Source of the DNA: Saprospiraceae bacterium
GTDB taxonomy: Bacteria; Bacteroidota; Bacteroidia; Chitinophagales; Saprospiraceae
Direction of reading: 5' to 3'
Assembly: GCA_019638385.1 (NCBI GenBank)
Contig: JAHBTW010000002.1
Location: 310,001-374,000, forward strand
Length of the DNA: 64,000 nucleotides
Shown here piece by piece: positions 1,192 to 28,357 of this stretch. Both the position numbers and the translations under genes were made by a program. The notes beneath the pieces were generated by a model. That model was not told the origin of the DNA, made no database searches, and worked only from the letters and a program-made list of their open reading frames with translations. Position 1 is the stretch's first letter. Each line of letters begins with the position of its first letter.

Positions 1192-2634
1192 TCATTCTGC
1201 GTTGCATTCCTCCAATAGCCAGTATTTATTGATCACGTTTTCCGTATGCTCCACTTTGAGCGCCAGTTCATCTAATTTTTCGCGGAGCGCCTTCTTTGAA
1301 TAGGTGTAGGCATGATGCCGCAATTGGACTAATTTTTTGGAAAACCGCAAGAAGTTGGTGTAGCTGCGCTTTTGTTCCGTGGTGATTTTTTGGGTTCGGA
1401 TGACGTAAATCCGAAAGGTTTCGATGAGGGAGAGCAGCGCCTCGGTGTCGTGCTGGGCGTAATACGTGCGCAGCAGCAGGAAGTTGGAATTGAGGTGGTA
1501 TTTCACATCGGTAAACTGAACGTGCAGCAGGGTTTGCAGGGTGTTGTCGTACTGTTTCTTGTGGTAGTAAAAATTGGCTAAGTTGTAGCTGTACGCGTTC
1601 TCGCGCTGGTGAGCGGGGATGAAATCTTTGTACTGGTGCAGGAAATTCTCCGTCCATTCAAATGCCTTGAGGCTACAGCCCAGCGTAGCGATGTTTTTGT
1701 AATCCCACTCAGACAAGACGTTGTTTTTGAGTAGCATACCGGAGGAAAGCCCTTTTTTGTAGAGATCGAACAATTCCGTTTGGTATTCGCTCTCCCCCTG
1801 ATTGATACGCCGGATGCAGTAGTTATAAGCAAAGGTGTACAAATCGCCACCGTCCACCTGCGACATAGACGACAACTGCTCCGCAAGCATGGTTTTCATC
1901 TCTGCATAGTGGCGGGGTTCGTCCTCTTCGCGAAGACTCATCAAAATGGTATGATAGAGCTTTACCCCCGGATCGTTTTCAAATTGAGCCCAATTGGCTT
2001 GCAAATACGCGAGCAACTCCTCCAAAAATCCCAGGTCGTAGTGTGAGTTCAGCACCATCATGTTGGCCGTGAGGTGGCAGCAATTGCGCAACTTCTCCAC
2101 GACGTAGTAGCGGTCTAAGTGATTAATCATGCGCTGCAGCCCGCCGGATTCAGAACGGTCTATGAATTCCACTCCATAATATCCCATCAGCGCATTGAGC
2201 CGGTACTGTGCATAGTGATATTGCCCGTTGGGGAAGGTGTGCTGCGCGAGATTTTTCTCCATTTGTTTAGCCCGGTTGACCAACAAATCAAACCGCCCCT
2301 GCTCAAAAGCCGCCTCTAAAGTGAGCAACTGCTCCGTGAGCGGATGCTGATCCACATATTCAAAAGCCAAAAAGCGGTGGTATTGCTTCTTGAGGTACGA
2401 CATGACATTGTGCAATTTCTGCTCGTCGTAAGACAGGCCGGGAAACAACAGCCCGTACAATTCCTCCCGCTCCAGATCCGCCTCCGTTTCCGACATGCGC
2501 GCCAGAATGATGTCTAATAGTTGGTTCGTCTTTTCGTGTTGATTGAAATAAGGCGAGTTGACAAACTGGTGAAACCGCTCTCTTTCGCGTGGGGATAGCT
2601 CCCGAAGAAATTTTATTATCCGGCTCTGTTGCAT
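1192..2634 (-). CDS. Conserved hypothetical 480-aa helical protein
   Basis: I do not recognise this protein. It begins MQQSRIIKFLRELSPRERER, has no signal peptide or membrane segment, and is rich in Leu, Gln, Tyr and charged residues arranged like stacked helical hairpins, as in TPR-type or alpha-solenoid proteins. Examples are the stretches around LANFYYHKKQYDNTL and LRTYYAQHDTEALLSLIETF in its C-terminal half. It is probably a cytoplasmic scaffold or regulator; I cannot say more. The ATG start has a promoter-like TAnnTTTG about 40 bases upstream. It is transcribed alone, convergent with murB and separated from the helicase gene upstream by 432 bases. Confidence 0.75.
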   Translation of the reverse strand: MQQSRIIKFLRELSPRERERFHQFVNSPYFNQHEKTNQLLDIILARMSETEADLEREELYGLLFPGLSYDEQKLHNVMSYLKKQYHRFLAFEYVDQHPLTEQLLTLEAAFEQGRFDLLVNRAKQMEKNLAQHTFPNGQYHYAQYRLNALMGYYGVEFIDRSESGGLQRMINHLDRYYVVEKLRNCCHLTANMMVLNSHYDLGFLEELLAYLQANWAQFENDPGVKLYHTILMSLREEDEPRHYAEMKTMLAEQLSSMSQVDGGDLYTFAYNYCIRRINQGESEYQTELFDLYKKGLSSGMLLKNNVLSEWDYKNIATLGCSLKAFEWTENFLHQYKDFIPAHQRENAYSYNLANFYYHKKQYDNTLQTLLHVQFTDVKYHLNSNFLLLRTYYAQHDTEALLSLIETFRIYVIRTQKITTEQKRSYTNFLRFSKKLVQLRHHAYTYSKKALREKLDELALKVEHTENVINKYWLLEECNAE

Positions 2635-2670
2635 CAGAAATAGTGTTTCAAGTTCAGAAATTCAATGCAA

Positions 2671-2697
2671 CAAAAGTAGTAATTAATTTACATTCAA
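2671..2697 (-). promoter_or_regulatory. Bacteroidota-type promoter of the 480-aa gene
   Basis: Read on the minus strand, TTG (2697-2695) is followed after 16 bases by TACTTTTG (2678-2671), matching the Bacteroidota -33/-7 pattern TTG...TAnnTTTG. It lies 37 bases upstream of the ATG at 2634. The spacer is at the short end of the usual range. Confidence 0.5.
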
Positions 2698-2782
2698 TAC
2701 ATTGGTTAAAATAAAAAGTACAACTCAATTACAGAAAGTTTTTTAAATGTACTATTTATGAGTCAAAACATGACGCATCTTT

Positions 2783-2996
2783 GTACCGTCACTCACAATG
2801 AAACACTATAAACACAGAAACGCAACTCGCTAATAACAAATCTTATAATTCCACAACACGACCGCTACTAACAATTTTTTTCCCAAACAGCGGAGCGCGT
2901 TTAGAGCGGGGTCTAATCTCCCCCGCCCGCTCCAAAGAATTATAATCTCATGAGTGCGTTGGAAAGGGTACTGCAGCAATGTGGTACCCTTTTTTT
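2783..2996 (+). ncRNA. Candidate structured small RNA or orphan leader in a 432-bp gene-free stretch
   Basis: The gap 2635-3066 has no convincing gene but does have structure on the plus strand. A CATCTTTG element (2776-2783, one mismatch to TAnnTTTG) is followed by segments that can pair in nested order: CACTCA 2790-2795 with TGAGTG 2951-2956, TTATAATTC 2843-2851 with GAATTATAA 2937-2945, GGAGCG 2892-2897 with CGCTCC 2928-2933, and GCGGGG 2906-2911 with CCCCGC 2921-2926. A strong terminator closes it. A tiny frame, MKHYKHRNATR (ATG 2798), lies near the 5' end. There is no known-family match that I can name. It could be a small RNA or a stranded attenuator leader. Confidence 0.4.
2963..2996 (+). 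terminator. Rho-independent terminator, rightward
   Basis: AAAGGGTAC (2963-2971) pairs with GTACCCTTT (2984-2992) around a 12-base loop and continues into a T-run to 2996. No annotated rightward gene precedes it, so it implies a transcript within 2783-2996. The helicase gene (leftward) begins its 3' end at 3067. Confidence 0.75.
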
Positions 2997-2998
2997 AT

Positions 2999-3021
2999 GC
3001 ATGGAGCATAGGGGCATAGAG
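2999..3021. repeat. Extragenic CATAG/TATGC-type short repeat, copy 1
   Basis: Iterates GCATGGAGCATAGGGGCATAG, a 7-8-base unit (GGAGCATA/GGGCATA). The same units recur at 10560-10593, 12124-12173 and 18507-18524, always in or next to intergenic spacers. Confidence 0.55.
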
Positions 3022-3066
3022 TTTCCGCCGAGAGTTTCATGGAGCGCAGGAGGGAAGCCTTCGCGG

Positions 3067-6000
3067 CTATTCCGTTTGTACTTCCACCAATACGGCTGAT
3101 AACACGAAATGCACGAATGTGCCGGCTACCGGTTTTTTGAAACTTGCCCGCAGCGAAGCGCCGGCCAAATGCAGCCACCCCGCCAGTTCCGCAGCCCGTT
3201 GGCCCCATTTCACATTGTTGTGATCGCTGTCGAAACTGCTGTTCTGAATCAACACCAAACCGGCATCGGTTTCCAATACCAAATCGAGTACGGCGTAAAA
3301 AAAGCGCCCATCCTGTTCCAGCATGACCGGGTACTTGCGGTGCATGGTTTGTATATTGAAACGCTGCCCCAGATAGCCTGCCCAGCTTTGCCCGGCCTGC
3401 AGGAGCCGCAGTTCGGTCAGTCCGGAATCGGGACAAAAACGAGCGATGGAATACTTCGCTATTTTGATATGCTCTTCGGCGGAAAGCCCCTCATAGTAAG
3501 CATTCAGAAATGCCTTGATGCCCTTAGCCGCGGCATAGCGATCGGCATCGGCCGGCAGTGCGATCTCGGCGCCGTAGCACATCGGCTTGCCCGCCTGCGC
3601 TTTGACGGCAGCGTTATAGTTTTCGCGACGCACATCAATGAAAGCCGGCGCATAAACAGCCCGACCCTTGCGGGCTTCCAAGTAAGCCACATCGCCTTCG
3701 CGCAATTCGGCATAAGTGAAATCACGCGGATAGGCGAGCTGTTCGGTGCGGACAGTCAGCGGCAAACCGTCCCATTCCCAAGGTGTTTCCTCCGAGTGGG
3801 GGTCCAATACCGGGTAGTCCTCCACACCGGCGTGCCACACCCGGTTGAGCCATTTGGGCGGGCGATTAACCGTAGGAAAAATGAGATAATCTCTGGCGCG
3901 GGTAAGGCCCACATACAGCAGGCGCGCCTCCTCGCGCAGTGCCCGCGCCGTGACGGCAGCTTGTTCCGGCCCGGCCTTGAGGCGTTCGTCCAAGGGCGTG
4001 TTGAGGGCCTGATCGCCATACGGGTTTACCCAAAACCGAAGCAGGCGGTTGCCCAGCAGGTTGTCGAGGTCCACCGTTTCCTGTTGGGGTACAATGTCAA
4101 ATCCCCACACATCGGCGCGCAAGCGCTGCTCCAGACTATGGCATATCGTGACGGGCCATTCCAATCCTTTACTTTTGTGATAGGTGAGCACTTCTACCGT
4201 GTCGGGGCCTTGCCCGGAGGCCTGCATGTCTTTTTCGTTGTTTTCCAAATCGCTGAGCCACAACAGGAAGCCCCCCAGCGATGCGGCCGTGTGCAGGCGG
4301 GTGCAGCCGTCTTCGTATTGCAGGGCCAGCCGGCGCAGGGCTTCTATATTGTCCAAGCGCTGCTGTGCATTGCCCCATGCGGCAATGATGCGGCGCAGTT
4401 CGAGTTCGTCCAACAACACATCCAATATTTCGGCGCCGGAGCACTCGGCCAGTTCTTTGCGCAAGCGCAGCAGCCGGTTGATGACGGGGTGGTCTTTGCT
4501 CCACAAGCCCTCCGCGCGGTTTTGCTCTACCTGTTCCAGATAGTCTAAGCGGTTTTCAATAATATCTTCAATGTCAATGCCGCCGGCCAACAGGAGGATT
4601 TCGGCAATGGACAGGGAGTCGCGGTAGTTGAGTACAAATTTCAGACAGGCCGCCACCAAACGGGCTTCTGCTGTGGCGAGCAATCCGTTGCGGGATATAG
4701 CAGCTCGCAGCCCGGCGCGGTGCAGCGCTTCGGCCAGGGTCGCGCATTCTTTGTTGGACCGGCACAGGATGGCCACATCGCCGGGGCGGGCCGGACGGGC
4801 GCTTTTCGCGTCTTTGTCCCAAATCAGTACGCCGGCATCCAACCACTCCCGCAAGCGTTCGGCAATACAGTTTTCCATCCAGGGCGAACCGGGCGGCCTG
4901 CCGGTTTCGCCTTCGGCCCGGAAATGCCAGTGCCACAGTGCATCGGTTAGTCCGGGCGCGTCGGTCGCCCTGGCGCGCTTGGGTTCGAGGGCGACCTGAT
5001 CGGCGGGCAGCTCCGGGAATGCTTTGGTGAAAAGGGCATTGGAAGCATACACCAAGTCCTGCCGCGAGCGCCACGAATAGCGCTGAATATCTTCCGGGCG
5101 AATGCCGCCGCTTTGGTCCACAATGGCCTGCATGAGTCGCGGATCGGCGCCCCGGAATCCGTAGATGGACTGTTTGGGGTCGCCTACCCATACGGAATGA
5201 GCGGCCATGCGGGAGAGTTTGAGAAAAATTTCCAACTGAATGGGGTTGGTATCCTGAAACTCATCCACCATGAGCAGATCGAGTTCTTCAGATAAAATAT
5301 TCCGCACCTCCGGCTTGTCTAACAAGCGTAGAATGAGGGTTTCCATGTCGGTATAGTCAATGAGGCCGCGTTGTTTTTTGTACCGTTCGTACTCTTGCAG
5401 GGCATCGGTGGCCGCCTCGAAGATGTGGAAGATGTAGTCGCGTATGTCATTTTGGAAAGCGGCATTGGCCTCGTGTTCGCGGGCGGCTTCTATGAGCGGA
5501 GCGGCATCGTCGCGGCTTTTCACAGCTACCTTGGTTTTGGCTGTTTTCATCCAAAAGCGCCATGACAATATACCGTTGAGGCTGAGTTGGCGGCGGGCAT
5601 CGCGCCACACGGCTACGGCATCGGCGGTTGTTTTGGTGGCATCGCCGTTGTTTTCCACACGGGCGATGGCGGCGTCGAGCGCTTCGGCGAAGCGGCGGTG
5701 CAGTGCCTCTTCCGATTCTTGCGTGGCAGCGGGGAGGTAACGGGCGAAGGATTCCCAAGAGTAGCTTTTACTTGCCGCGAGGGTTTCCAACGAAAACGCA
5801 TTGGAGCGGGCGATGTCGGTGAGTTCGCGCAGCTCCTTGCGCCAGTCGTGCGGAGCGCGGTCGTGCATACCGAGGCGGTGACACAGGCGGTCAATGGCTT
5901 CGACCCGTTCGGCGCGGAGCACCATAGCGAGGGAGTTGTTGAAGAGGGTTTGTTGGTCTTCTTCGGCAATGATTTCCACCCGTGGAGAAACGCCCGCCTC

Positions 6001-6285
6001 AAAAGCAAAACGCTGCAAGAGTTTAACGCCGAGGCTGTGTACAGTACCGATGAGCGCATTGGTAAGTTCGTCGGCCTCGCGGATCAGCCCCGATTCGAGC
6101 AGCCGCACGCGCACGCGTTCCTGCAATTCGGCTGCCGCTTTTTTGGTAAAAGTAGTGGCAATGATCCCGGAAGGGCGCACGCCCTTTTGCAGCAGGTCCA
6201 CCATTTCGGAAGTCAGACGGAAGGTCTTGCCGCTGCCGGCGCCGGCGGAGATGATGCGAATATGCGTTGGTGGCGATGGCGTCAT
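3067..6285 (-). CDS. UvrD/AddA-like superfamily 1 helicase with degenerate C-terminal nuclease region
   Basis: 1072-residue ATP-dependent 3'-5' DNA helicase of the UvrD/RecB/AddA group, expected in double-strand-break repair. Motifs in order: Walker A SAGAGSGKT (13-21), Ia TTFTKKAA (about 44-51), II VDEFQDT (340-346), III GDPKQSIYGFRGA (368-380), IV SWRSR (404-408), V YHKSKGLEWP, and VI LLYVGLTRARD. The length and the C-terminal beta-rich tail resemble AddA/RecB proteins that carry a PD-(D/E)XK nuclease. Here the region around VLDLVLETDAGLVLIQNSS (about 999-1017) has QNSS where D-x-K is expected, so nuclease activity looks lost. No AddB or RecC partner lies nearby. It is the last gene of a leftward run (E1, metF, helicase), 64 bases after metF. 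Confidence 0.9.
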   Translation of the reverse strand: MTPSPPTHIRIISAGAGSGKTFRLTSEMVDLLQKGVRPSGIIATTFTKKAAAELQERVRVRLLESGLIREADELTNALIGTVHSLGVKLLQRFAFEAGVSPRVEIIAEEDQQTLFNNSLAMVLRAERVEAIDRLCHRLGMHDRAPHDWRKELRELTDIARSNAFSLETLAASKSYSWESFARYLPAATQESEEALHRRFAEALDAAIARVENNGDATKTTADAVAVWRDARRQLSLNGILSWRFWMKTAKTKVAVKSRDDAAPLIEAAREHEANAAFQNDIRDYIFHIFEAATDALQEYERYKKQRGLIDYTDMETLILRLLDKPEVRNILSEELDLLMVDEFQDTNPIQLEIFLKLSRMAAHSVWVGDPKQSIYGFRGADPRLMQAIVDQSGGIRPEDIQRYSWRSRQDLVYASNALFTKAFPELPADQVALEPKRARATDAPGLTDALWHWHFRAEGETGRPPGSPWMENCIAERLREWLDAGVLIWDKDAKSARPARPGDVAILCRSNKECATLAEALHRAGLRAAISRNGLLATAEARLVAACLKFVLNYRDSLSIAEILLLAGGIDIEDIIENRLDYLEQVEQNRAEGLWSKDHPVINRLLRLRKELAECSGAEILDVLLDELELRRIIAAWGNAQQRLDNIEALRRLALQYEDGCTRLHTAASLGGFLLWLSDLENNEKDMQASGQGPDTVEVLTYHKSKGLEWPVTICHSLEQRLRADVWGFDIVPQQETVDLDNLLGNRLLRFWVNPYGDQALNTPLDERLKAGPEQAAVTARALREEARLLYVGLTRARDYLIFPTVNRPPKWLNRVWHAGVEDYPVLDPHSEETPWEWDGLPLTVRTEQLAYPRDFTYAELREGDVAYLEARKGRAVYAPAFIDVRRENYNAAVKAQAGKPMCYGAEIALPADADRYAAAKGIKAFLNAYYEGLSAEEHIKIAKYSIARFCPDSGLTELRLLQAGQSWAGYLGQRFNIQTMHRKYPVMLEQDGRFFYAVLDLVLETDAGLVLIQNSSFDSDHNNVKWGQRAAELAGWLHLAGASLRASFKKPVAGTFVHFVLSAVLVEVQTE

Positions 6286-9963: not shown

Positions 9964-10276
9964 ATCAGAAAAAAGTTTTGATGACTACGGCTAATGAGGT
10001 ATCGCCTTTTCAATATGAGTCACGGGAAGCAGAACAAATGTAACTAATAATTTCACCCAGTCGCCTTTGTGCAAAAAAATTGTTTGCGCAATCCGCATTT
10101 CGCACAGTTCCCAAGAGACACTTTTCGGTATTTTTTTGAAAAAAATTTGTCGCATCGCAACAAACATTCTATTTTCATGGCCGATTCAGAGGCCGTCCAA
10201 CAACCGCCTGAATTGTTACAAACGGGAAAGCCGAAAACCGATCAGAGTAGGCACAAAACACTAAAAACTTCAAATT
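9964..10276. other. 313-bp divergent intergenic region
   Basis: Separates the leftward 140-aa membrane protein from the rightward TM2 gene. It is A/T-rich on the right (a T-run followed by an A-run at about 10130-10150). I see one minus-strand promoter element (10035-10042) and no credible gene. Frames here lack coding character. Confidence 0.6.
10035..10042 (-). promoter_or_regulatory. Promoter -7 element for the 140-aa gene
   Basis: Reads TACATTTG on the minus strand, an exact TAnnTTTG match 72 bases before the ATG at 9963. A TTG at the expected -33 spacing is not evident. Confidence 0.4.
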
Positions 10277-28273: not shown

Positions 28274-28357
28274 GCCCAGATGGTGAAATTGGTAGACACG
28301 CTACTTTGAGGGGGTAGTGCTCGCAAGGGTGTGCAGGTTCGAATCCTGTTCTGGGCA
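28274..28357 (+). tRNA. tRNA-Leu (anticodon GAG)
   Basis: 84 nt. Acceptor stem GCCCAGA pairs with TCTGGGC. D arm GTG...CAC with the loop AAATTGGTAGA. Anticodon stem CTACT/GGTAG (one U-G pair), loop TTGAGGG and anticodon GAG at 28308-28310. A long class II variable arm (TGCTCGCAAGGGTGT) marks Leu. T arm GCAGG-TTCGAAT-CCTGT. Discriminator A at 28357 followed by CCG, so CCA is not encoded and must be added. Confidence 0.96.

Follow-up and report, generated by a model that had tools for sequence, protein, structure and literature searches.

A conserved non-coding RNA gene in Saprospiraceae predicted to encode a multi-site sponge for sibling small RNAs

The intergenic gap at positions 2635-3066 (432 bp) of the window, i.e., of the whole stretch of 64,000 nucleotides analysed, is located between two leftward ORFs and harbours a conserved non-coding RNA gene (RNA A) with its own promoter and terminator, the transcript being predicted. 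A and its paralogue B rather probably represent multi-site sponge (decoy) RNAs for sibling sRNAs which would repress translation starts without Hfq. Since A carries copies of a motif that is matched by sRNAs of the same genome, it probably soaks up these sRNAs and frees silenced messages. The following sequence of events is envisaged: (i) the TGTACT-box promoter becomes active and A and B are made, (ii) both RNAs, as start-codon mimics, would base-pair with several of the sRNA siblings, (iii) the sequestered siblings would be kept off the start codons of their target mRNAs, and (iv) these targets, apparently encoding exported and envelope proteins, would be released. Expression, in-cell pairing, sequestration, the effect on targets and an inducing signal are steps which we infer from sequence.

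An earlier note on this DNA had described the gap with its coordinates and flanking ORFs correctly, and its proposal of a new RNA of ~200 nt with own promoter and terminator was borne out by the prediction: A extends on the plus strand from 2789 to 2996 (~208 nt, the start being placed according to the promoter), appears to occupy the same gap in relatives and is unclassified, the Rfam covariance search of A yielding no match, as the note had surmised in finding no known family. The promoter-like sequence seen there belongs to a promoter common to A and B (2748-2785, plus strand), consisting of a TGTACT box, a 26-nt spacer and TTTGTA, with TTTG at 2780-2783 and CATCTTTG at 2776-2783. At the exact 38-nt spacing, TGTACT-N26-TTTGTA occurs at two places in the own genome, in front of A and B only, and this promoter is conserved 5' of 36 A/B-like transcripts. 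Likewise, the T-tailed intrinsic terminator is present at 2963-2996 (plus strand; stem 2963-2992, T run 2990-2996) and compensatory changes are clear: among 24 sequences the pairing is kept in 94.2 % of cells, and 37 double-change cells were counted vs 9.9 in shuffles, none of 500 shuffles attaining this number. The promoter and terminator of A were not flagged by simple scans for terminators and sigma-70 promoters, because just 4 T follow the 13-bp stem and the scan did not include promoters of the Bacteroidota type.

A search of 60 genomes at the DNA level recovered A from two congeners (identity 82 % and 73 %) and fragments of it from four further genera (E < 1e-4); 43 of the 60 genomes were listed at E up to 1, most of these being chance matches. 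A script requiring promoter, 3' motif and terminator retrieved the 36 transcripts mentioned above (29 A-like, 7 B-like). The B of the own genome and its two orthologues in the genus are absent from this set, since the script accepted strict motifs only and demanded a T run no more than 75 nt away.

The divergently oriented ORF of 480 aa (1192-2634, minus strand; no Pfam family match) is a conserved neighbour of A, a homologue being present on the fetched DNA around 27 of 29 A-like entries. On the other side of the gap, the 1072-aa helicase ORF (3067-6285, minus strand) was seen next to A solely at the loci of the own genome when neighbours in relatives were compared, and it is no conserved partner of A. 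Of the two genes between which the earlier note had expected the gap to recur, the 480-aa gene accompanies A in relatives and the helicase gene does not. B is located directly 5' of rpe (Pfam Ribul_P_3_epim) in the own genome (G000:C31, L167), and an rpe homologue was present on the fetched DNA around all 7 B-like entries. In several genomes the 480-aa gene and rpe enclose A and B as a tandem pair, which suggests this arrangement to be ancestral.

The 5' part of A contains a conserved element (CAATGAAACACTATA, 2796-2810, plus strand), which is apparent from alignments, is predicted to be unpaired (0.91) and is also found in the leader of the 480-aa gene. The shared stretch TGAAACACTAT is located at 2640-2650 (minus strand) in this leader and at 2799-2809 (plus strand) at the 5' end of A; judged by this match, A may also mimic the leader of its neighbour. 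In the own genome, TGAAACACTAT additionally precedes the start of a response-regulator-like gene (L360). A small 5' ORF (ATGAAACACTAT..., MKHY...) was rejected as coding: relatives do not preserve its frame, one of them has GTG as start, and several A-like transcripts lack the element.

The motif CUACUAACAAAUUAUAAUCYCAUGA, often preceded by ACGACY, is repeated at three sites in A and two in B, with two to four copies per A/B RNA and several copies in tandem. In A, these are site 1 (CTCGCTAATAACAAATCTTATAATTCC, 2826-2852), site 2 (ACGACCGCTACTAACAATTTTTTTCCC, 2858-2884) and site 3 (GAATTATAATCTCATGAGT, 2937-2955), all on the plus strand. Site 3, a putative start-codon mimic complementary to the common sRNA seed, is near-invariant in 24 relatives and constitutes the top or near-top match of several sRNAs in the window; it is predicted to be mostly paired within A (unpaired 0.29), compared to 0.53 for site 1. 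Repetition of the motif is general among A/B RNAs: after removal of 8 of the 36 transcripts as near-duplicates (for this and the wobble test below), the 28 non-redundant ones contain on average 1.64 further CTACTAACAAATTATAATCCC copies per transcript, compared to 0.21 for shuffles and 0.07 for the reverse strand, a copy being defined by at least 13 of 21 matches and the 3' motif used for finding the transcripts being excluded. A search of family genomes with TTATNATCTCATGA gave matches in 89 of 199 (reversed control, about 27 of 199), and of 105 stretches listed from relatives many are chance matches in unrelated phyla.

B-type RNAs display a near-invariant GGTATGTAGATAGCCTCTCAAAGCTC 3' of the 3' motif plus a second hairpin before rpe; GGTATGTAGATAGCCTCTCAAAGCTC was found in L167 (own genome), L036, L048, L051, L179, L183, L206, L230, L242 and L245. 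At L242 (G086:C1:6656100-6658100), two nearly identical B-type RNAs are present in tandem, ~630 nt apart. In L176 and L177, the stretch AGCCTCTCAAAGCT additionally precedes the promoter of A. L180 and L178 (G022, G150) hold a third type of RNA, which contains TTATAATCCCATGAAC-like copies, possesses a terminator of its own and, within the sequence inspected, is linked neither to the 480-aa gene nor to rpe.

The presumed partners of A and B are sRNA-like loci sharing the seed UUCAUGRGAUUAURAUUUGUU, which is complementary to the A/B motif and located directly 5' of terminators. The own genome contains about six to eight such genes with the motif complement directly before the terminator, the count being given as a range because two loci hold tandem seeds and may each form one transcript. 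When up to three mismatches were allowed, the three genomes of the genus together contained 24 matches to ACAAATTATAATCCCATGAA (control, 0), and a further ten A/B genomes contained 98 (control, 4). Most of these matches are no sponge copies; rather, the opposite strand reads UUCAUGGGAUUAUAAUUUGUUAGUAGGUCGU or a variant, with a terminator hairpin immediately 3' of it. The 120 distinct matches from 13 genomes comprise 73 with a terminator on the antisense side, 12 sponge copies, 11 possible gene starts and 24 others, several of which resemble class II loci whose T run is weak. Tallied over all loci (118 matches), a terminator was present in antisense only in 63 and in sense only in 3. All 13 A/B genomes examined possess sRNA-like loci, at least two each, which fall by their flank pattern into class I (13 of 13 genomes), II (12), IV (11) and III (4). 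A scan of nine loci, of which six contain sRNA elements of the own genome, gave no match to an Rfam family; matches to L20 leader, mir-379 and RT-2 in related loci were far below the cut-offs and were discarded.

Pairing of A/B with these sRNAs is well supported by the complementarity predicted between them. Informative tests are those which do not use the search motif itself, i.e., the 18 nt before the motif (30 flank combinations). The 18 nt before site 1 match its best partner, a class IV sRNA at G000:C22:35888 (p 0.0008), and those before site 2 match a class I sRNA at G000:C1:844124 (p 0.0005). In case of B, the flank of the first site matches classes I and II (0 of 4000 random 18-mers as good for each) and the C33 sRNA (p 0.0008). 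Most of the 30 combinations are not significant. When both strands of the 64-kb window were ranked for complementarity to the class I sRNA, sites 3, 2 and 1 of A came first, second and fourth, third place being taken by a palindrome on the opposite strand of A; for the class IV sRNA, sites 1 and 3 ranked first and second. For four of eight sRNAs (s3, s4, s5, s8), A was not first or second in the window. RNAduplex energies are in line with this pattern: z reached -6.0 (s1) and -5.1 (s2) for B (s1, s2, s6 and s7 spanning -6.0 to -3.4) and -4.4 (s1) and -3.0 (s6) for A (s1, s2 and s6 spanning -4.4 to -2.1), and was otherwise weak or at chance level, i.e., -0.9, -0.3 and +0.4 for A with s3, s4 and s8, respectively. 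A wobble-bias test (A>G vs T>C at paired positions) revealed no bias (44/405 vs 32/270); as site variation follows the sRNA classes, this test is unclean and not counted as support. Complementarity to the seed of sRNAs from the same genome, as in a CrfA-like sponge, was found.

The main rival of the sponge reading is a reversal of roles, in which A and B would be multi-seed regulators and the elements preceding the terminators would be 3' UTR targets controlling mRNA stability or 3' ends. In most class I and IV loci there is no TTTG box near the seed, i.e., no close promoter, and in the own genome the class IV locus sits after the end of an upstream ORF; class I and IV elements may indeed be 3' UTR elements. 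In class II and III loci, in contrast, the seed is preceded by a TTTG box at a distance of 60-95 nt. Moreover, occurrence of the motif on start codons in relatives (see below) fits sRNA-to-mRNA targeting combined with a decoy, and few many-site sponges face many single-seed loci. We therefore regard the reversal as unlikely, albeit as the alternative most deserving attention.

A and B could further titrate a motif-recognising RNA-binding protein, following the logic of CsrB, with the complementary loci representing an unrelated second use. Protein sponges of the CsrB/RsmZ type carry many GGA-type CsrA sites and go along with a CsrA homologue. An A/U-rich motif repeated in the sense strand and partly single-stranded would suit protein binding, but complementarity reaches past the motif and differs between paralogous sites, neither of which is predicted by a common protein site, rendering titration of a protein improbable.

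The earlier note had also likened the long rod-like pairing of the ends to that of 6S-like and other regulatory RNAs. The four pairings quoted there (2790-2795/2951-2956, 2843-2851/2937-2945, 2892-2897/2928-2933 and 2906-2911/2921-2926) are perfect complements at these positions, and none of 200 shuffles reaches the stability of the region 2776-2996 (-54.7 kcal/mol, z -3.86). For 2789-2962, from which the terminator is excluded, z is only -2.51 and 4 of 200 shuffles are equally stable, i.e., the body folds somewhat better than shuffles; therefore much of the folding signal resides in the terminator, whose signal is strong, and that of the rod is weak. Among 11 relatives, the four helices together comprise 8 pairs with double changes vs 7.4 in shuffles; the outer helix is paired in 70.8 % of cells and helix 2843-2851/2937-2945 in 90.9 %, both with zero double changes, and the inner helices in 43.9 to 57.1 %. 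A conserved long rod with central bubble was accordingly not found, its double changes being no more frequent than in shuffles, and of the compensatory changes anticipated in relatives those of the terminator were recovered and those of the rod were not. Most sequences keep the helix TTATAATTC/GAATTATAA, without double change; it exists because A repeats a motif with the self-complementary core ATTATAAT, and the best "helix" of the rod, formed by two palindromic motif copies (AUUAUAAU), is better explained as sRNA pairing sites. The Rfam covariance models for 6S and 6S-Flavo (RF01685) gave no match in the window (a whole-genome RF01685 search matched zero control genomes), and at relaxed thresholds A matched Rfam models only at the terminator: BjrC68 and sbrA, whose weak matches lean on it, were rejected. 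The rod as functional feature was consequently abandoned, a 6S-like or other structured RNA of this kind being highly improbable. Just as little credence is given to a DNA-level repeat or transcription-factor site instead of RNA sites, since, despite the palindromic core and the many copies per genome, the orientation is fixed relative to promoter and terminator and opposite in the two locus sets, and the terminator of A is maintained by covariation.

In other Saprospiraceae, the motif is located exactly on the start codons of L186, L228, L233, L234, L235, L238, L239 and L247. The products of these eight genes are apparently secreted or surface proteins: two contain a CHU_C type IX secretion domain (Pfam), and export of the remaining ones was judged by their N-termini, L238 and L239 having no Pfam family match. 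In G115, one sRNA-like locus and one motif-bearing start share 30 consecutive complementary bases. Most start-like matches in A/B genomes open with an apparent signal peptide, lipoprotein signal or membrane anchor (read by eye), a trend which is suggestive only, since starts of this kind are favoured by an A-rich pattern with ATGAA at its end. No clear mRNA target was found in the own genome, in which L320, with TTATCAACCCATGAA covering the start codon region of a seemingly exported protein, represents a weak candidate. SusC mRNAs were dismissed as targets, as none of the 22 SusC-like starts read (own genome and G115) carries the motif.

Within the own family, the 20-nt motif was detected with up to 2 mismatches in 103 of 137 genomes vs 23 of 259 from other families of the order (reversed control: 6 and 10 genomes, respectively), and the labels of the named relatives read Saprospiraceae, Lewinella or Chitinophagales. 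Within this sampling, the system appears largely confined to the family. An Hfq model matched in 0 of 6 genomes, the controls being matched in 5 of 14; pairing would therefore proceed unaided or via another protein. Taking these observations further, one may tentatively picture a Saprospiraceae-wide, Hfq-free regulatory layer, in which two sponges with a dedicated promoter, start-codon mimics tuned to siblings and conserved sRNAs gate exported surface proteins; this wider picture, which would provide a bacterial counterpart of multi-site microRNA sponges, is put forward with less than even confidence.

Closest in logic is the sponge CrfA of Caulobacter crescentus, which, according to the available part of PMC12559287, pairs with the conserved seed of the sibling sRNAs SisA-D; the latter possess terminators and exert repression close to the start codon of mRNAs. 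Like CrfA, A and B are predicted to be independent non-coding RNAs matching the seed of a sibling sRNA family. In the portion of that paper at hand, CrfA has one interaction site, four siblings and depends on Hfq, whereas A has three sites and B two, the siblings are more numerous, two sponges share the same promoter, and the genomes offer no sign of a CrfA-type Hfq dependence, which is not required of sponges generally. Sponge action is shown for CrfA (PMC12559287) and only proposed for A/B. SroC and 3'ETS-leuZ of enterobacteria, named in the same paper, also sequester sRNAs by base pairing, but originate from other transcripts by decay or processing, while A/B have own promoters, terminators and repeated sites.

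As Bacteroidota sRNAs binding start regions, FopS and GibS of Bacteroides thetaiotaomicron, acting with RbpB, come closest to the partner loci (PMC11697453 and PMC7366714, available in part). The shared traits are multicopy siblings in Bacteroidota, a common seed directed at start codons of envelope mRNAs and independence of Hfq; as with FopS siblings, several paralogous loci per genome carry one seed and terminator. FopS, however, has its seed at the 5' end and targets susC, whereas in the partner loci the seed precedes the terminator, and the motif is absent from SusC starts. The accessible parts of both papers describe no sponge RNA for FopS/GibS, and the likeness concerns the features described above. 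The 6S-Flavo RNA is likewise a Bacteroidota non-coding RNA of similar size class, from which A differs in having no covariance-model match in the window and no conserved rod.

A and B may thus be viewed as a new RNA family that works like an sRNA sponge and, comprising two paralogues, forms a multi-site variant of this kind, membership being putative; no papers on such RNAs in Saprospiraceae were found among the open-licence papers searched. Little is known about Hfq-free use of small RNAs in Bacteroidota beyond gut genera, the nearest worked example found being FopS/RbpB in Bacteroides. The present proposal offers a complete, testable circuit (sponges, siblings, promoter and candidate targets) in a large environmental family. 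If true, it would provide an example from bacteria of a sponge that binds several siblings at several sites, and the start-codon mimic would reveal which part of the mRNA the siblings recognise.

Elsewhere in the window, a DUF805b RNA match is located at 10221-10253 (plus strand; Rfam, 40.5 bits, cut-off 35.6) and a tRNA match is located at 28274-28357 (plus strand). The own genome also contains a CRISPR-like array (L361 and L362, G000:C13 near 4900 and 5840) with the repeat CTTTTAATCGTACCAGATTGGAATTGAAAC and one spacer present twice.
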